Shown here piece by piece: positions 3,444 to 16,101 of a stretch of 17,452 nucleotides of DNA; position 1 is the stretch's first letter, and each line of letters starts with the position of its first letter. Made by a program: the position numbers and the translations under genes. Below the pieces are notes generated by a model. It saw only the letters and a program-made list of their open reading frames with translations, made no database searches and was not told where the DNA came from. The DNA comes from Candidatus Zixiibacteriota bacterium (lineage in GTDB: Bacteria > RBG-13-66-14 > B26-G2 > WVWN01), in NCBI GenBank assembly GCA_030613505.1, contig JAUWLW010000052.1, positions 1 to 17,452 on the forward strand, read 5' to 3'.

Positions 3444-3526
3444 AGTACCCGACGTCGCGCCGGGCGTACGGAGAGGCAAATAAATAGACGGCGGTGAGTG
3501 GTTTGCGTTCGTACGGCCGAAACGGC

Positions 3527-3602: not shown

Positions 3603-5039
3603 GTGAAGATAGAAGGGATAACGGATTTCGAGTCACTCGCGGCGTACGCCCGCGAAAACGGCGTCGTCAACCTGGACTTGAAATTCGTCGACCTTCCGGG
3701 CCGCTGGCACCACGTAACGGTCCCGGCGGCGCGACTGACCAACGAACTCTTCGAATACGGCGTCGGCTTCGACGGCTCGCAGAGCCCCGGGTACAAGGCC
3801 GTCGAGGCGGGCGACCTGGCGCTCAGGCCGGACCCGACGACGGCGATGTTGGACCGGTTCTGGGAGCAGCCGACTGTCTCGCTCATCTGCGACATCCACG
3901 AGGCCGACACGCTCGAGCGCTACGCCCGCGACCCGCGCGCGCTGGCCGAGCGCGCCGCGGTCTACCTCGCCGGCCTTAACGTCGCCGACGCCTACTGGGT
4001 GTCGCCGGAGTACGAGTTTCACCTCCTGCGCAACGTCTACTACGCCTCCGAGCCGGGGCGCTGCCTGTACTTCGCCAACGCCCCCGAGGAGGAAGAGGGC
4101 TCGCACATCTCCGCCGCGGTGGCGACGCCCGGCTACAACGTCCCGCGCGAGGGCGGCTACCAGTCGATCCCGCCGCTGGACGAGTTCTACGACCTGCGCG
4201 CCGAGATGGCCGCGGCCGTAGAGGCCTCGGGTTTGCCGGTCCGCTACCACCACCACGAAGTGGGCGCCACCGGCCAGTGCGAGATAGAGGTGGGTTTCCT
4301 CCCGCTGGTGCGGGCCGCGGACATGAACCTCTGGGTCAAATACCTGGTACGGAACCTCGCCCGGGAGTGGGACCTGTACGCGACCTTCATGCCCAAGCCC
4401 ATATTCGGCGAGGCCGGCAACGGCATGCACGTCCACCAGTTCCTGGGCTCGGAGGGGCTCTCGGCCTTCTACGACGCCGACGGCTACGGCGGCCTGGGCG
4501 AACTGGCGCGCCACTTCATGGGCGGCATCCTGAAGCACGGCCGGTCGCTGGCCGCCTTCACCAACGCCGCCACCAACTCCTACAAGCGCCTGGTGCCCGG
4601 GTTCGAGGCGCCGGTGCGCCTCTTCTACTCCATCGGCAACCGCTCCGGCACGATACGGATTCCCAAGTACGCGGCCCGGGCCGAGGAGGCGCGCTTCGAG
4701 TACCGGCCGCCCGACGCCACCTGCAATCCGTACCTCGCCTTCTCGGCCTTGCTCATGGCCGGCCTCGACGGCGTCGTGAACGAGGTCGACCCGGGCGAAC
4801 CGCTCGAGGAAGACCTGGCCAAGATGCCCAAGGCCAGGCAAAGGCGGATACGCTCGCTGCCCAAATCGCTGGTGGCGGCCCTCGACGACCTGCGCCGCGA
4901 CCACGACTACCTCGTCGCCGGCGGCGTCTTCACCGAGGATATAATAGGGGCTTATATCGAGACCAAGATGGAGCACGACGTGCGCGCCCTCGACCGGCGG
5001 CCCCACCCCCACGAGTACATATTATATTTCGACATGTAG
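3603..5039 (+). CDS. glnA: Type I glutamine synthetase
   Basis: Catalyses ATP-dependent synthesis of glutamine from glutamate and ammonium in the cytoplasm. It is 478 residues, the normal length for a dodecameric GSI subunit. Conserved sites are present: metal-binding glutamates in S-P-E-Y-E-F (136, 138), H-H-H-E-V-G-A-T-G-Q-C-E (E219, E227), G-N-G-M-H-V-H-Q (H276), N-R-S-G-T-I-R-I-P (N346-R347 and R352), and F-E-Y-R-P-P-D plus C-N-P-Y-L-A-F (365-380). The start is GTG 3603, with GGAGG 7 nt upstream; longer in-frame starts lie above the promoter. The C-terminal segment 395-434 has no tyrosine in the region equivalent to the adenylylation loop of E. coli GlnA, so control by AMP transfer is unlikely. 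It leads the nitrogen-assimilation block, upstream of the HdrBC-like and glutamate synthase genes. Confidence 0.96.
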   Translation: MKIEGITDFESLAAYARENGVVNLDLKFVDLPGRWHHVTVPAARLTNELFEYGVGFDGSQSPGYKAVEAGDLALRPDPTTAMLDRFWEQPTVSLICDIHEADTLERYARDPRALAERAAVYLAGLNVADAYWVSPEYEFHLLRNVYYASEPGRCLYFANAPEEEEGSHISAAVATPGYNVPREGGYQSIPPLDEFYDLRAEMAAAVEASGLPVRYHHHEVGATGQCEIEVGFLPLVRAADMNLWVKYLVRNLAREWDLYATFMPKPIFGEAGNGMHVHQFLGSEGLSAFYDADGYGGLGELARHFMGGILKHGRSLAAFTNAATNSYKRLVPGFEAPVRLFYSIGNRSGTIRIPKYAARAEEARFEYRPPDATCNPYLAFSALLMAGLDGVVNEVDPGEPLEEDLAKMPKARQRRIRSLPKSLVAALDDLRRDHDYLVAGGVFTEDIIGAYIETKMEHDVRALDRRPHPHEYILYFDM

Positions 5040-5102: not shown

Positions 5103-6425
5103 ATGGCAAACCGCCTGCCGATATTCTGGGGATGCACGATCGCCCACCGCCTCCCCTTCATTGAAAACGCGACTAGGCGCGCGCTACAAACCCTCGGCAT
5201 CGAAATCGTCGACGTCGAGGGTTTTAGCTGTTGCCCCGACCCGCTCTTCTCGCGCCTTCTCGGCGAGGAGGATACGCTTGCGCTTTCGGCTCGGAACCTG
5301 GCGCTGGCGGCCGACGCCGGTCCGGAGTTATTGGTCGTATGCGACGGCTGCTACCAGTCTCTCGCGGCCGCCGCGTGCGAGCTGGGCCACCGCGGCCGGC
5401 GGGAGGCTGTAAACGCCCGCCTCGCCGCTGCGGCGTGCCGGTACGACGGAGGGGTTCGTCCCCTCCATTTTTTAGAAGTCCTGAGGCGCCTGGGCGCCGA
5501 CGCCGTGAAGGAGTGCGTCGCGCGACCGCTGACGGGTTTGCGTCTGGCCGTCCACTACGGCTGCCACGCGCTAACGCCGTCGCCGCCGGCCGTCGCCGAC
5601 GCCTCGAATCCCAAGATTATGGAGGAGACGGTCGCGGCCCTCGGCGCGGAACCGGTCCCGTACGGCGAGCGGCTGAGCTGCTGCGGCGGCCCGCTCTCGG
5701 CCTTCGCCGAAGAAACCAGCGCGCAACTTCTAAGGCGCAAGATGCGCAGCGTCGACGAGGCCGGGGCCGACGCCGTCGTCCTCACCTGCCCGAGCTGCTT
5801 CCTGCAGTTCGACCTCCGCGCCAAGCTCGTCGACGAGGACCTCCGCCTTCCGGTATTCCACCTCGCCGAGCTGATGTGTCTCGCCTTCGGCGTCCCGGCC
5901 CGGGACCTCCGCTTCAAAGGTTGGCACGCCGTCCGCGTGGATGACGCGATGAAGATAATCGGCGCCGAGGAGGACGGGGAGGACCTCCGCCGGCACTTCG
6001 ACGTCGAGAGCCTCGCCGAATGCTGCGGCTCCTGCACGTACGAGTGCACGGTGGTGCGGGGCCAGGCCGACGTCGCCAAGCGCAACGTGTACGACCCGAT
6101 GGCGGTCGTAGATAAGGTCGTGGCGGGCGACATCGAGCCGCTGCTTCAGAGCGAAGAGATATGGTACTGCATCGCGTGCCACGAGTGCGTTCGCCGATGT
6201 CCGCACGGCCGGGGCCTGGCCGGGATGTTCGAAACGCTCAGGAGGCTGGCGCTCGCGCGGGGCGTGAGGCCGGAGGCCGTGACGGCCCGGCTGGACAGCG
6301 TCCGCAAGACGGGCCTGGGCCTCGCGAAGCAGGAATGGGCCCGCGACGAGTTCGGCCTCGGGCCCGCGTCCCAGCCGTCCGCCGAAGAAGTGGCGAAGGT
6401 CCTGGGCGGAAGTGACGACGAATGA
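5103..6425 (+). CDS. HdrB-HdrC fusion-like iron-sulfur protein in the glutamate synthase operon
   Basis: 440 residues in two parts. Residues 1-~245 resemble the heterodisulfide-reductase subunit HdrB, with two complete cysteine-rich CCG motifs: C11-x31-C43C44-x35-C80-x2-C83 and C154-x38-C193C194-x34-C229-x2-C232. These bind noncubane [4Fe-4S] clusters in HdrB and occur in many thiol/disulfide and quinone-linked oxidoreductases. The C-terminal part resembles HdrC: a first cysteine group C-C-G-S-C-T-Y-E-C (~307-315), lacking the usual spacing of the first cysteine, and a full ferredoxin motif C-I-A-C-H-E-C-V-R-R-C-P. No membrane segment is present. The gene follows glnA by 63 bp and overlaps the next gene by 4 bp (ATGA), so it is translated with the glutamate synthase. 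I infer an electron-transfer role for that enzyme. A true methanogen-type Hdr is unlikely because HdrA is not nearby. Confidence 0.85.
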   Translation: MANRLPIFWGCTIAHRLPFIENATRRALQTLGIEIVDVEGFSCCPDPLFSRLLGEEDTLALSARNLALAADAGPELLVVCDGCYQSLAAAACELGHRGRREAVNARLAAAACRYDGGVRPLHFLEVLRRLGADAVKECVARPLTGLRLAVHYGCHALTPSPPAVADASNPKIMEETVAALGAEPVPYGERLSCCGGPLSAFAEETSAQLLRRKMRSVDEAGADAVVLTCPSCFLQFDLRAKLVDEDLRLPVFHLAELMCLAFGVPARDLRFKGWHAVRVDDAMKIIGAEEDGEDLRRHFDVESLAECCGSCTYECTVVRGQADVAKRNVYDPMAVVDKVVAGDIEPLLQSEEIWYCIACHECVRRCPHGRGLAGMFETLRRLALARGVRPEAVTARLDSVRKTGLGLAKQEWARDEFGLGPASQPSAEEVAKVLGGSDDE

Positions 6426-7618
6426 ACGGCCTTTCCTATAGAGGAACGTGGGATAAACCCGCTACGCCGCCGGGCCGGCTGGAGCGAATCGGCGAGGCGT
6501 GCGGCATCGCCGCGCTGGTAAACCTGGACGGGCGCCCCGAAAGCGGCGCCCGTATCGGTAAAATGATCCGGACTATGGTCGACCGCGAGAACGGCCTGGG
6601 CGCCGGCTACGCCGCCTACGGCCTATTCCCCGAGCGCGCCGACCTCTACTGCCTCCAGATGCTCTTCGACGACCGGGGGGCGCTGGAGCGCGCGCGGGAA
6701 TTCCTCGGAAAAAAATTCCGCCTCGACGCCGACGAGGAGATCGCCACGTACCCGGTGGCGACGCTTTTGGGGAAGCCGCCGATCTGCTGGCGGTTCTTCG
6801 TAGCGCCCCCCAAGGAGGCCGAGGGGCAAGAGGACGACTACGTCATGGCGCAGGTCTTCCGGCTCAACGCCGAGCTGGCCGGCGCGTTCGTGATGTCCTC
6901 CGGCAAAGATATGGCGGTCTTCAAGGGGAACGGCTGGTCGCACGAGATTTTCGACTTCTACGGCATCGGCGATTACGAGGCGCCGCTGTGGCTCGCCCAC
7001 TCGCGCTTTCCGACCAACAGCCCGGGCTGGTGGGGAGGGGCGCACCCCTTCAATATCCTGGGCCTCTCCATCATTCACAACGGCGAGATCACGTCCTACG
7101 GGACGAACCGCCGCTTCGTCGAGATGTGGGGTTACCGCTGCACGCTGTTGACGGACAGCGAGGTCATCGCGTATTCGCTGGACCTGCTGCTGCGCCAACA
7201 ACGTCTCCCGGAGCTCGTCGCGTGCGCGGCCCTCGCGCCCCCCTACCACTTCCTCATCGACGAGATGGAGAACGGCGGCGCGCGGGAGCTGTTGCGCGAG
7301 ATCCGCGTGAACTACCGCCCGGCGATGCTCAACGGCCCTTTCAGCGTCGCCGTGGCTACGAATTACGAGGCGCCGACGCTGCTCGGCATGACGGACCGCA
7401 AGAAACTCCGGCCGCTGGTGGCGGCGACCTCCGCCGACGGCAATACCGTCTTCCTCTCGAGCGAGGAGTGCGCCATCGCTATCCTGGGCGAGGATGCCAC
7501 GGAGGCCTGGGCCCCCCACGCCGGCAAGCCCGTCATCGCCGGCGTAGGGCGCGGCCTGGTCCGGCGCGGCACGGAGGATTACTTCGAGGGCCTCGAGATC
7601 GAGTTCGCGAACCCGTAA
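6422..7618 (+). CDS. Glutamate synthase, glutaminase (class II amidotransferase) subunit
   Basis: 398 residues matching the N-terminal amidotransferase domain of GltB as a separate polypeptide. It hydrolyses glutamine and passes ammonia to the synthase subunit. The catalytic nucleophile should be Cys27 (A-C-G-I-A-A-L-V-N), which becomes N-terminal after removal of 26 residues. The motif S-R-F-P-T-N-S-P-G-W-W-G-G-A-H-P-F, then I-I-H-N-G-E-I-T-S-Y-G-T-N and T-D-S-E, are the conserved substrate-binding and oxyanion elements of GltB. The start ATG overlaps the stop of the HdrBC-like gene. No later methionine or other start codon places Cys27 at position 2, so a cleaved propeptide, as in E. coli GltB, is likely. 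It ends 5 bp before the FMN subunit gene. Confidence 0.92.
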   Translation: MNGLSYRGTWDKPATPPGRLERIGEACGIAALVNLDGRPESGARIGKMIRTMVDRENGLGAGYAAYGLFPERADLYCLQMLFDDRGALERAREFLGKKFRLDADEEIATYPVATLLGKPPICWRFFVAPPKEAEGQEDDYVMAQVFRLNAELAGAFVMSSGKDMAVFKGNGWSHEIFDFYGIGDYEAPLWLAHSRFPTNSPGWWGGAHPFNILGLSIIHNGEITSYGTNRRFVEMWGYRCTLLTDSEVIAYSLDLLLRQQRLPELVACAALAPPYHFLIDEMENGGARELLREIRVNYRPAMLNGPFSVAVATNYEAPTLLGMTDRKKLRPLVAATSADGNTVFLSSEECAIAILGEDATEAWAPHAGKPVIAGVGRGLVRRGTEDYFEGLEIEFANP

Positions 7619-7623
7619 TCGTT

Positions 7624-9153
7624 ATGGCGGACATATACCACGAGATCCCACCACGCTTCCAGGTCGAAATCGACCGCGAGAAGTGCCGCCTCTGCGAGCG
7701 GTGCACGGTGAACTGCACCTACGACGTGCACTCGTTCCAGGGCGAACGCATCGTTACCCGCAGCGAGAACTGCGTCGCGTGCCAGCGCTGCGCGACGATG
7801 TGCCCCCAGGGGGCTATCTCGATCCTGCCGGGCAAAATCTCCTTCGCGCCCCACTACACCTACAGCGAGCGCATCAGGCGCATCATCTACGAGCAGGCCA
7901 GCACGGGGGGAGTGATGCTCGCCGGCTCCGGGACCGACCTGCCGTACCGCGTTATCTTCGACGACCTGCTGCTCGACGCCGCCCAGGTGACCAATCCCTC
8001 CATCGACCCGCTGCGGGAAACAGTCGAGACGGTTACCTACCTCGGCCGCAAGCCGGACCGAATGTTCGTGACCGAAGGTGACGGCAAGCTGACCGTGAGC
8101 CGGGGCGCCGACTACCCCAACGTCCAACTCTCGACGCCCATCGTCGTGGGCCACATGTCGCTGGGGTCGATCTCGTACAACGCTTGCGTCGCCATCCTCC
8201 GCGCCGCCAAGGAAGTGGGGACCATGGTCGGGACCGGCGAGGGCGGCCTGCACCCCGACTTCTACGAGTACGCGGACGTCATCAACAGCGAGGTCGCCTC
8301 GGGCCGCTTCGGCATCGAGCCCCGCTACCTCAAGGAGATCGCCGCGCTCGAGATCAAGATAGGCCAGGGGGCCAAACCAGGCCACGGCGGCCACCTCCCC
8401 GGCGAGAAGGTAGACGCGCTCATCTCCGAGACGCGCATGATTCCCAAGGGGACGGACGCGCTGTCGCCCTACCCCCACCACGACATCTACAGCATCGAGG
8501 ACCTGGCGCAGCTCATCGGCGCGCTCAAGGAGGCGAGCCGGTACCGCGTGCCGGTAGGCGTCAAGATAGCGGCGGTACACAACAGCGCGCCCATCGCCTC
8601 CGGCATCGCCCGCGCCGGCGCCGACTTCATAACGTTGGACGGCCTGCGGGGCGGAACCGGCGCCGCGCCCCGCATCATTCGCGACCACGCCGGCATCCCC
8701 GTCGAGCTGGCCGTCGCGGCCGTGGACCGGCGCCTCCGCGAGGAGGGAATCCGCCACCTGGTCTCGATCGTGGCGGGCGGGAGCATCCGCTACGCCGCCG
8801 ACCTGGTGAAGGTCCTCGCGCTGGGCGCGGACGCGGCGATGGTGGGCCAGTCGGTGCTGATCGCGATGGGCTGCCGCGCGTGCCAGATGTGCCACCTCGG
8901 CAACTGCTCGTGGGGAATAGCGACGCAGCGGCCCGACCTCACGCGGCGCCTCGACGTGGACATCGCCGCCCAGCGGCTGGCCAACGTCTTCCACGCCTGG
9001 ACCGAGGAGCTCCGCGAGATACTGGGCGCGCTCGGCATAGACTCCGTTGAATCGCTGGTGGGCAATCGCGACCGCCTCCGCTACGTGGGGCCCAACCCCA
9101 AAGTCGCGGAAGTTTTGGGCGTCAAGCACGCCGGCGAACCGTGGTCCGATTAA
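7624..9153 (+). CDS. Glutamate synthase, ferredoxin-FMN synthase subunit (archaeal-type GltB2)
   Basis: 509 residues. Residues 11-65 are a two-cluster ferredoxin domain: C21-x2-C24-x2-C27-x3-C31 and C50-x2-C53-x2-C56-x3-C60-P. The rest is the FMN-binding glutamate synthase barrel, which makes glutamate from 2-oxoglutarate and ammonia. Landmarks are G-H-G-G-H-L-P-G-E-K-V, S-P-Y-P-H-H-D-I-Y-S-I-E-D-L, G-L-R-G-G-T-G-A-A-P and V-A-G-G-S-I-R. The [3Fe-4S] ligands follow as C417-x5-C423-x4-C428, exactly the spacing of bacterial GltB, ending in G-I-A-T-Q-R-P-D-L. The ATG at 7624 lies 5 bp after the previous stop without a good Shine-Dalgarno, suggesting translational coupling. The frame is open far upstream (to 6988) inside gltB1, but that part overlaps the glutaminase gene and is not coding. 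Confidence 0.95.
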   Translation: MADIYHEIPPRFQVEIDREKCRLCERCTVNCTYDVHSFQGERIVTRSENCVACQRCATMCPQGAISILPGKISFAPHYTYSERIRRIIYEQASTGGVMLAGSGTDLPYRVIFDDLLLDAAQVTNPSIDPLRETVETVTYLGRKPDRMFVTEGDGKLTVSRGADYPNVQLSTPIVVGHMSLGSISYNACVAILRAAKEVGTMVGTGEGGLHPDFYEYADVINSEVASGRFGIEPRYLKEIAALEIKIGQGAKPGHGGHLPGEKVDALISETRMIPKGTDALSPYPHHDIYSIEDLAQLIGALKEASRYRVPVGVKIAAVHNSAPIASGIARAGADFITLDGLRGGTGAAPRIIRDHAGIPVELAVAAVDRRLREEGIRHLVSIVAGGSIRYAADLVKVLALGADAAMVGQSVLIAMGCRACQMCHLGNCSWGIATQRPDLTRRLDVDIAAQRLANVFHAWTEELREILGALGIDSVESLVGNRDRLRYVGPNPKVAEVLGVKHAGEPWSD

Positions 9154-9169
9154 ACGCTTTTGGAGGAAA

Positions 9170-10009
9170 ATGGTCGAAGTAAAGGAAAAAGTCGAAGCGG
9201 AGGTAAGGGCGGAAGCCGAACCGTACGTCGTCGAGATTTCCGCGCTGGACGAACGGGGGGAGCCGAAGCCCTACAAAGCTCTCAACGAAGAGGTCCACCG
9301 CGCCGCCGCGGCCGGCTGCGACGTCATCCGCCTGCGCGACGTGCACGGCCAGCGTTTCCTGGCCGCGGGTATGGAAGGCCGGGTTCGCCTCGAGGTCTAC
9401 GGCACGCCCGGCAACGACCTCGGCATCTTCATGGACGGCCCGACGATCGAGGTCTTCGGCTCGGCGCAGGACCAGACCGGCAACACGATGAACAACGGCA
9501 AAATAGTCGTCCACGGCAACGCCTGGGACGTCACGGCCTTCGCGGCGCGGGGAGGCAAGATCTTCGTCCGGGGCGACGGCGGCTACCGCATCGGCATCCA
9601 CATGAAGGAGTTCCGGCGGCACCGGCCGGTCGTCGTTTACGGCGGCTGCGTGCGCGAGTTCTTCGGCGAGTACATGGCGGGTGGCTTGCTGGTGGCGCTG
9701 GGGCTCGACGGCCGCGGGAACGCCGCGACCCACAACGCAGGCCGCGAGGTTGTCGGCCCGGGCCTCGCGACCGGAATCCACGGCGGCGTCATATATCTGC
9801 GCGGCGACGTCCCCGACCACTACCTCGGCGTCGGCGCCGTCAAGCGCGGGCTCGACGAGCGCGACCGTAAAACGCTCGAGCCGGTATTGCGCGAGTTCGG
9901 CGAGTACTTCGACGTCCCGCTCGAGTTAATTTGGGAGAAGCCGTTCACGAAAGTAGTGCCGGCCTCCTCCAGGCCCTACGGGGCGTATTATTGTGGAAAA
10001 TTGATCTAA
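9170..10009 (+). CDS. Glutamate synthase, GXGXG (GltB C-terminal) subunit
   Basis: 279 residues corresponding to the C-terminal right-handed beta-helix of GltB, here a separate subunit. Repeating glycine-rich turns occur throughout (G-M-E-G-R-V, G-T-P-G-N-D-L-G, M-N-N-G-K-I-V-V-H-G-N-A, A-R-G-G-K-I-F-V-R-G-D-G-G-Y-R-I-G-I-H, A-G-G-L-L-V). The domain stabilises the ammonia tunnel of the synthase. The first ~30 residues are rich in K/E/V and may be an assembly arm. The start is ATG 9170, just after GGAGG, 16 bp after the FMN subunit. The last residues (Y-C-G-K-L-I) end normally. With the two preceding genes it reconstitutes all of GltB, so the enzyme is complete except for an electron-input (GltD) subunit. 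Confidence 0.93.
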   Translation: MVEVKEKVEAEVRAEAEPYVVEISALDERGEPKPYKALNEEVHRAAAAGCDVIRLRDVHGQRFLAAGMEGRVRLEVYGTPGNDLGIFMDGPTIEVFGSAQDQTGNTMNNGKIVVHGNAWDVTAFAARGGKIFVRGDGGYRIGIHMKEFRRHRPVVVYGGCVREFFGEYMAGGLLVALGLDGRGNAATHNAGREVVGPGLATGIHGGVIYLRGDVPDHYLGVGAVKRGLDERDRKTLEPVLREFGEYFDVPLELIWEKPFTKVVPASSRPYGAYYCGKLI

Positions 10010-15168: not shown

Positions 15169-16101
15169 CTATTTCGGTCTGCCGGCCTTGAGGTCGACTT
15201 TCTCGTCGAGCTTGTCCTCCAGGATCTTATGGCCCAGCTCCTCGCCGAGGTCCGTCAAGGCCGGGATGCCGCTCGCGTCGTCCATCGGGATGGGATACGG
15301 CAGGTCCATCTGGAAGCGGCGGAAATCGAGGCCGGGGAAGAGGTCGCGCACCAGCCGCACTTGTTGGTCGCTGGCGTCGGATACAAAAGTGTCGATGGTT
15401 TGGGAGGCCCAGTTCAACGCGTTGAACCGGTCGGCCTGGTGCGGCTTCAAGCCCTCCGGGTAACGGCCGGTACCGATGCTGACGAGCGTCGTCTCCTCGA
15501 GCGGCCACTGGAGGCAGAACTTGGCCTCGTACGCGGCTATGTAGCAGGGGTTCGCGTAGGAGCCGACGCCGCCGTCGACGTAGCGGCCGTCCACCACCGG
15601 CATGTACGTCGGCGCCGACGAGCTGCAAAGTACGGCGTACCAGAGCTTCCAGTCCCTGTAGTTATCCTTCCACGGTTTGACGAAGCAGGTTTTATTGAGG
15701 ACCAGGTCGCGGGTGGTGATGACGACGTCCATCCGCGGGTCCGCGGCCCACACGTCGCCCATCGTCGTCTCGCCCAGGAACTTCCGCAGCGTAGTCTTGA
15801 AGCCGTCGCTGGGGTACATGTAGTGGACCAGGTACTTAAAGGGGAAGATACAACGCCAGCTTTTCTTAAAAATACCGCGCCCCAGGTCCTCGTATACCTC
15901 GTGGATCTTCGTCGCCGGGATGCTAGCCGCGATGGCCGCGGAAAGGATGCTGCCGGTGGAGGTCCCGGCCGTCAGCTGGAACATCTCGCGGCACGACCTC
16001 CCCACCGCCCCTTCCAAGACGGCCAGCGCCTTGGCGACCATCGTCCCCCGGATGCCGCCGCCGTCTATGGCCAGCGCGGCGTACTTGCGAAACGGCTTCA
16101 T
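15169..16101 (-). CDS. Patatin-like phospholipase
   Basis: 310 residues, a full patatin domain with the Ser-Asp catalytic dyad. D13-G-G-G-I-R-G19 is the oxyanion-hole motif, G46-T-S48-T-G50 is the nucleophile elbow (Ser48), and V-D176-G-G carries the catalytic aspartate. These enzymes hydrolyse acyl esters of membrane lipids. No signal peptide is present, so it acts in the cytoplasm or is delivered by another route. ATG 16101 has GGGGAGG 6 nt upstream and a good promoter at 16182-16210. The gene is single, flanked by identical hairpins and convergent with the YARHG lipoprotein. Patatins occur in lipid turnover, virulence and also in anti-phage systems such as CBASS, but no cyclase gene is next to it here. 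Confidence 0.93.
   Translation of the reverse strand: MKPFRKYAALAIDGGGIRGTMVAKALAVLEGAVGRSCREMFQLTAGTSTGSILSAAIAASIPATKIHEVYEDLGRGIFKKSWRCIFPFKYLVHYMYPSDGFKTTLRKFLGETTMGDVWAADPRMDVVITTRDLVLNKTCFVKPWKDNYRDWKLWYAVLCSSSAPTYMPVVDGRYVDGGVGSYANPCYIAAYEAKFCLQWPLEETTLVSIGTGRYPEGLKPHQADRFNALNWASQTIDTFVSDASDQQVRLVRDLFPGLDFRRFQMDLPYPIPMDDASGIPALTDLGEELGHKILEDKLDEKVDLKAGRPK

Follow-up and report, generated by a model that had tools for sequence, protein, structure and literature searches.

Glutamate synthases (GOGAT) are classed by their electron donor, which may be NAD(P)H, ferredoxin or, in methanogens, F420. Here we describe an operon in which the electrons for a glutamate synthase split into three pieces very probably enter through a fusion of HdrB- and HdrC-like heterodisulfide reductase (Hdr) subunits, HdrBC. 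The operon lies on contig JAUWLW010000052.1 (assembly GCA_030613505.1) of a Candidatus Zixiibacteriota bacterium, for which the whole stretch of 17,452 nucleotides analysed is referred to as the window; the host genome is 2.86 Mb in size and 93% complete. The genes are in the order glnA-HdrBC-GltB1-GltB2-GltB3, closely spaced and all on the forward strand, with the stop codon of HdrBC and the ATG of the glutaminase gene sharing 4 bp (ATGA at 6422-6425). This agrees in coordinates and domains with a preliminary description of the window, in which the fusion was described as embedded in an operon for glutamine synthetase and split GOGAT and was said to overlap the glutaminase gene by this amount. 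On balance it would seem that HdrBC replaces the usual flavoprotein of a split glutamate synthase and is fed by a dithiol donor. We propose only tentatively that this is a new class of glutamate synthase, found in many anaerobic bacterial phyla and in certain archaea, in which the electrons would come through an Hdr-type module from a protein-bound lipoyl dithiol and not directly from NAD(P)H, ferredoxin or F420.

Conservation of the HdrBC neighbourhood

GTDB genomes were scanned with an alignment (A1) of four fusions that had been picked from sequence only, giving 469 relatives, and the best 80 loci were taken for analysis. In 79 of the 80 the HdrBC fusion is on the same strand beside split gltB, while the 80th is a 3.1-kb contig that is too short to tell. 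The usual order is HdrBC, glutaminase (GATase), flavin mononucleotide (FMN) subunit and GXGXG subunit, or a rotation of this. The loci come from Actinomycetota (49), Methanosarcinales/ANME-2 Archaea (11), Bacillota (6) and Armatimonadota/Hebobacteria (3), with others from Sumerlaeota, Nitrospinota, Acidulodesulfobacteriota and further bacteria, making seven named phyla altogether. A glutamine synthetase gene is adjacent in 28 of the 80 loci, and none of the 80 contains a gene resembling GltD, HycB or NROR (bits >= 120). A search for CCG-domain proteins near split gltB in other genomes had been suggested in the preliminary description; the order is conserved across these phyla, and the possibility that the neighbourhood is restricted to one genome is refuted by its occurrence in both Bacteria and Archaea.

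Because the best hits favour one subfamily, an unbiased survey was made of 386 genomes chosen regardless of neighbourhood. A full-length fusion is present in 12 of these, every one of them in a GOGAT context, and the FMN subunit is found in 11 of the 12 compared with 41 of the 374 others (Fisher p = 1e-9); in the twelfth the contig ends right after HdrBC-GATase. HdrBC and FMN-subunit distances are correlated with r = 0.97 over 73 loci, which fits an interaction of the two proteins, although alone it is no proof. No natural fusion of HdrBC with a piece of GltB, sought as a direct sign of contact, was found, and a search of viral contigs for HdrBC gave no match. At one locus, from a Nitrospinae metagenome-assembled genome (L157:9496-11088), an extra divergent Glu_synthase-domain protein of 530 residues is encoded between the FMN and GXGXG genes.

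Occupants of the electron-input position

This FMN subunit is encoded in 52 of the genomes; HdrBC is found beside it at 11 loci, HycB-like and/or NROR-like genes at 32 and both types of input at none. The HycB-like protein is a dicluster ferredoxin. The NROR-like protein is a pyridine-nucleotide oxidoreductase that uses flavin adenine dinucleotide (FAD) and ends in a C-terminal domain of the rubredoxin-reductase kind. In two of the 11 loci (L248 in genome G183 and L254 in G227) separate hdrB and hdrC genes stand in the place of HdrBC and are likely to be its unfused form. The nine genomes assigned to neither type comprise five with contig breaks, two with lone FMN genes and two, of a single genus, without either module. 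The loci with HycB-like and/or NROR-like input (L099:9140-14440 and 31 others, from L090-L100 and L236-L271) make up a second conserved type of split GOGAT. In methanogens an FrhB-like subunit is reportedly used in the corresponding place (PMC3087415, PMC9012536). Since the HycB/NROR pair, or an FrhB-like protein, fills the same position elsewhere, HdrBC is assigned to the electron-input slot, and we are highly confident that it acts as the input module of this glutamate synthase.

In a tree of 121 FMN subunits the HdrBC and HycB/NROR types separate with a single change. Two loci in the HdrBC half of the tree (L238 in G126 and L257 in G263) are without HdrBC and have an AhpF/thioredoxin-reductase-like gene about 1.1 kb away. 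With a GGDEF-like open reading frame in between, this gene was not used as evidence.

The exchange also bears on other roles that HdrBC might have. It could be a disulfide reductase drawing on the GOGAT ferredoxin domain or on the ferredoxin pool, with the outward flow tying nitrogen status to thiol reduction, and methanogen HdrB-type proteins do reduce a disulfide, the HdrB fold and cysteines being intact here. HdrBC is, however, mutually exclusive with an input pair that is evidently of the NAD(P)H type, and this GOGAT has no other dedicated donor, making such a role very unlikely. It is still harder to see HdrBC as a passenger gene that neighbours GOGAT without interaction and has been spread by horizontal transfer of the operon. 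The operon is missing from the congeners G001-G003 and has hence been gained or lost as a block, probably through horizontal gain in the window lineage or loss in theirs, but the linkage is held over the seven named phyla and two domains of life with a one-to-one exchange at the slot.

The preliminary description had noted that the operon is without GltD, and this extends beyond it. No GltD is encoded in the window, the GltD model TIGR01317 is above its cut-off in 0 of 47 split-GOGAT genomes and no standard gltD co-varying with these gltB genes was found elsewhere, although in one genome of the HycB/NROR type (G151) two fragments are possibly a split GltD. With GltD neither encoded with GltB nor co-varying with it, membership of the NADPH-dependent GltBD type was rejected. 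The best GltD-like open reading frame in the window genome (contig C63), the one that is free-standing, scores 281 bits with the GltD model, whose cut-off is 447.7, and is above threshold only for the broader TIGR01316, which Nfn-type proteins resemble. As it lies directly downstream of a gene for an NfnA-type ferredoxin-NADP reductase subunit and scores under the GltD cut-off, it is read as a member of an NfnAB pair and was rejected as the missing GltD. The sole other strong homologue of the FMN domain in this genome (contig C30, L053:8231-9670) is a single glutamate-synthase FMN domain fused to rubredoxin, without a glutaminase or GXGXG partner nearby, and was rejected as a partner of the operon.

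Clusters, proposed electron path and possible donor

HdrBC consists of two PF02754 CCG domains followed by an HdrC-like dicluster part with eight cysteines. The two complete CCG motifs and the HdrC-like ferredoxin part claimed in the preliminary description are borne out, with all 18 cluster cysteines found, and in an alignment with 90 relatives from two domains of life, the window copy included, 18 of 18 are kept. The HdrC-like part is not regular throughout, however, as its first cluster motif reads CCxxCxxxC in the copy from the window, two residues short of the CxxCxxCxxxC of the relatives (complete in the eight inspected in the alignment), though all eight cysteines are present. The first 286 residues match the solved HdrB of Methanothermococcus (5odc_B, E 8e-54) with 10 of 10 CCG cysteines aligned. 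The AlphaFold model of HdrBC, which has a mean predicted local distance difference test score of 81 and a confidence below 50 for residues 303-328 of the HdrC-like part, superposes on the same structure with a Z score of 35 and a root mean square deviation of 1.9 over 281 residues. Fold matches ranking below HdrB and EtfD (racemases, Z ~7) were set aside as common arrangements. HdrBC scores 214 bits with the methanogen HdrB equivalog TIGR03288, and two relatives 283 and 274, against a cut-off of 345; it is therefore an HdrB-type protein but, by that test, no CoB-CoM heterodisulfide reductase. Nor was it taken for HdrD, the partner of the membrane protein HdrE, in which HdrC precedes HdrB in one chain, the opposite of the order seen here.

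Whether HdrBC is an input module or a redox sensor had been left as alternatives in the preliminary description. Conserved order, mutual exclusion and co-occurrence favour the former. Fe-S clusters are in principle capable of sensing redox state, although direct evidence for this was not found. That HdrBC is a sensor or regulator of glutamate synthase with no part in catalytic electron transfer is highly improbable given the invariance of the 18 cysteines, the lack of any regulatory domain in HdrBC and its substitution for, rather than addition to, a catalytic electron-transfer pair.

GltB is of the split archaeal-like type, with a glutaminase having an N-terminal cysteine, an FMN/Fe-S synthase domain and a GXGXG domain encoded together. 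The nucleophile of GltB1, Cys27 (codon 6500-6502), follows a propeptide and is invariant in 121 relatives. The cluster cysteines of GltB2, eight plus four, are conserved and all 12 are kept in the window copy, as seen in the alignment; from what is known of GltB, we take Cys417, 420, 423 and 428 to hold a [3Fe-4S] cluster. The adjacent glnA is consistent with the predicted formation of glutamate from glutamine and 2-oxoglutarate.

From this arrangement we infer that HdrBC and GltB form a physical complex in which electrons flow towards GltB. Entry would be at the HdrB active site with its two CCG noncubane [4Fe-4S] clusters, from which electrons would cross both clusters of HdrC. They would then reach the GltB2 ferredoxin domain, presumably the docking and entry site for electrons from HdrBC, and pass on to the FMN. 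At the FMN end they would reduce iminoglutarate, formed from 2-oxoglutarate and glutaminase-derived ammonia.

A pointer to the donor, which the preliminary description had not named, comes from the six Bacillota loci (L102, L103 of Desulfotomaculum copahuensis, L106, L164, L169 and L178, a count from the best 80 loci only), where a dihydrolipoyl dehydrogenase (Lpd) gene is found between gltB3 and hdrBC. The two of these that were scanned score 503.6 and 562.9 with TIGR01350, against a cut-off of 408.8. Five of the six loci also encode a free-standing lipoyl domain of ~80-90 residues immediately upstream of hdrBC, and at L102 the LipB octanoyltransferase and LipA lipoyl synthase, both above cut-off, are encoded between Lpd and this carrier. 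In related archaeal loci a lipoate-protein ligase gene follows the operon, directly at L172 and also at L181. Of the HdrBC-GOGAT genomes, 13/14 and 47/50 (60/64) encode a lipoate ligase/transferase domain, compared with 20/33 of the other type (p = 1e-4, inflated by relatedness and a few duplicates). The potential of the 2-oxoglutarate/glutamate couple is about -0.13 V. That of lipoamide, -0.29 V (PMC6067878), lies below it, and the transfer would therefore be downhill.

It is likely that the donor in the clostridial operons is a dithiol of the lipoyl kind. The best candidate would be the dedicated lipoyl carrier protein, which dihydrolipoyl dehydrogenase would keep in the reduced state at the expense of NAD(P)H, giving a putative path from NAD(P)H through Lpd, lipoyl dithiol, HdrBC and the GltB2 ferredoxin domain to FMN. 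In other hosts, including that of the window, a lipoyl or similar dithiol carrier whose gene is elsewhere would probably serve. HdrBC could also be an input module with a donor that is not lipoyl, either a CoM/CoB-like or thioredoxin-like thiol or a direct partner, for instance a bifurcating flavoprotein of the HdrA type. In six Methanosarcinales/ANME-2 loci (L158, L136, L163, L160, L170 and L172) hdrA, and hdrC-hdrB too where the contig allows, is found beside HdrBC-GOGAT, and lipoyl genes are missing from most loci. HdrA is, however, absent at the bacterial loci, a search of the gene-cluster table, which was not exhaustive, gave no recurrent alternative donor gene in the remaining loci, and lipoate machinery is nearly universal in HdrBC-GOGAT genomes. 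We regard a donor of this other kind as unlikely, though worth keeping in mind.

Several observations weigh against replacement of the flavoprotein by a lipoyl-fed HdrBC. Lipoyl genes are at the locus in one clade only, the Bacillota; the two related archaeal loci have just the nearby lipoate ligase, and some 50 actinobacterial loci and the window operon have no lipoyl genes. Those for lipoylation elsewhere in a genome may be there for glycine cleavage or for 2-oxoacid dehydrogenases. The single switch in the FMN tree amounts to one ancient event and not to repeated independent replacement. The window copy is itself on a long branch and its first HdrC motif is altered, which makes the activity of this copy less certain; the four proteins of the window are divergent, with a median identity to relatives of 35% for HdrBC and 56% for the FMN subunit.

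Related systems and the window genome

The F420-dependent GOGAT of methanogens (PMC3087415, PMC9012536) resembles the present system in having a split GltB with an adjacent, dedicated input subunit other than GltD, but its FrhB binds F420 and FAD whereas HdrBC has no flavin or nucleotide site; by the published account the F420 dependence itself remains unproven. No FrhB-type gene is seen in the window in the vicinity of the operon, which was not placed with the F420 type. The HycB/NROR type (32 genomes) has homologous GltB1-3 and input genes in the operon, but with the rubredoxin-reductase-like flavoprotein in place of HdrBC and in the other half of the FMN tree. NADPH-GOGAT (GltBD) shares the catalytic chemistry and domains of GltB, which here is in three pieces and without GltD. 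The HdrB/HdrC proteins of methanogens (5odc, 7bkb, 8rvu) have the same ten CCG cysteines, with Z scores of 33-35 and an HdrB identity of 37-38% (5odc, 8rvy). They differ in that HdrBC is a single chain with HdrB before HdrC, has glutamate synthase as its partner, is without HdrA at bacterial loci and occurs mostly in non-methanogens. A precedent for Hdr-type proteins acting with a lipoyl carrier is the sHdr-LbpA system of sulfur oxidation (Cao et al, 2018, PMC6067878), where the carrier is proposed to become reduced. There too CCG Hdr proteins are tied to a lipoate carrier and maturation genes, the Lpd linkage of that system being archaeal, but here the carrier is proposed as an electron donor for glutamate synthesis and would itself be oxidised. 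None of sHdrA, TusA or DsrE is found in the listed clostridial operons.

No literature was found that deals with HdrBC beside GOGAT or with both lipoyl and GOGAT, though most subscription journals lay outside the search and an earlier description is possible. The enzyme would still be a glutamate synthase, but one whose input module is unreported in the literature searched and whose donor is possibly new. If true, an Hdr-type, dithiol-fed form would mean a further class of donor for an enzyme at the centre of nitrogen metabolism. It would also account for how this enzyme is fed in many anaerobes that lack GltD, and HdrB-type CCG proteins would gain a function in biosynthesis. If the donor is lipoyl, lipoic acid would also have a role in nitrogen assimilation, with the Hdr-lipoyl pair working in the biosynthetic direction. 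The pattern of slot exchange provides an annotation rule for hundreds of non-methanogen genes named 'CoB-CoM heterodisulfide reductase subunit B', and the operons with Lpd and lipoyl genes make the question of the donor open to direct testing.

Outside the operon, the window genome encodes the lipoate ligase LplA and a carrier of the GcvH type, as well as an Lpd-like gene with LipA next to it. A lipoyl donor supplied in trans to the HdrBC-GOGAT of the window is plausible, but we would not put it more strongly than that. On contig C15 (L288:1252-3537) the Lpd-like gene is followed almost directly by LipA, with no 2-oxoacid dehydrogenase subunit in the short locus. On contig C19 (26447-31745; L282:6448-11746) a GcvH-type lipoyl protein, a LarA-like racemase, a fused GlcD-CCG flavoprotein of 831 residues and a lipoate ligase are encoded in succession on one strand, so that this genome may have a second CCG-domain enzyme that is paired with a lipoyl carrier. 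Mis-binning of the window contig was rejected as unlikely, since its composition matches that of the genome (tetranucleotide profile 0.95 with the genome mean). The features of the operon are collected in the table.

Features of the glnA-HdrBC-GltB operon, in window coordinates
Feature	Position	Strand	Basis or remark
glnA, type I glutamine synthetase	3603..5039	+	TIGR00653 above cut-off; likely start GTG 3603, open reading frame opens at 3498
HdrB-HdrC fusion, 440 residues, proposed electron-input subunit of split glutamate synthase	5103..6425	+	CCG domains, HdrB fold, conserved neighbourhood
First CCG motif, CX31CCX35CXXC (Cys11, 43, 44, 80, 83)	5133..5351	+	
Second CCG motif, CX38CCX34CXXC (Cys154, 193, 194, 229, 232)	5562..5798	+	
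HdrC-like part, 8 Cys for two [4Fe-4S] clusters	6021..6200	+	alignment with 90 relatives
GltB1, class II glutaminase subunit	6422..7618	+	PF00310/PF13522
GltB2, 2[4Fe-4S] ferredoxin domain and FMN-binding synthase domain	7624..9153	+	PF01645 (E 3e-126) and Fer4 domains
GltB2 two-cluster ferredoxin domain (Cys21-60)	7684..7803	+	
GltB2 Cys-rich stretch (Cys417, 420, 423, 428)	8872..8907	+	
GltB3, GXGXG beta-helix subunit	9170..10009	+	PF01493

Further along the window, on the reverse strand, an open reading frame for a patatin-like phospholipase (15169-16101), with GGGIRG and GTSTGS motifs, has no connection to HdrBC-GOGAT.

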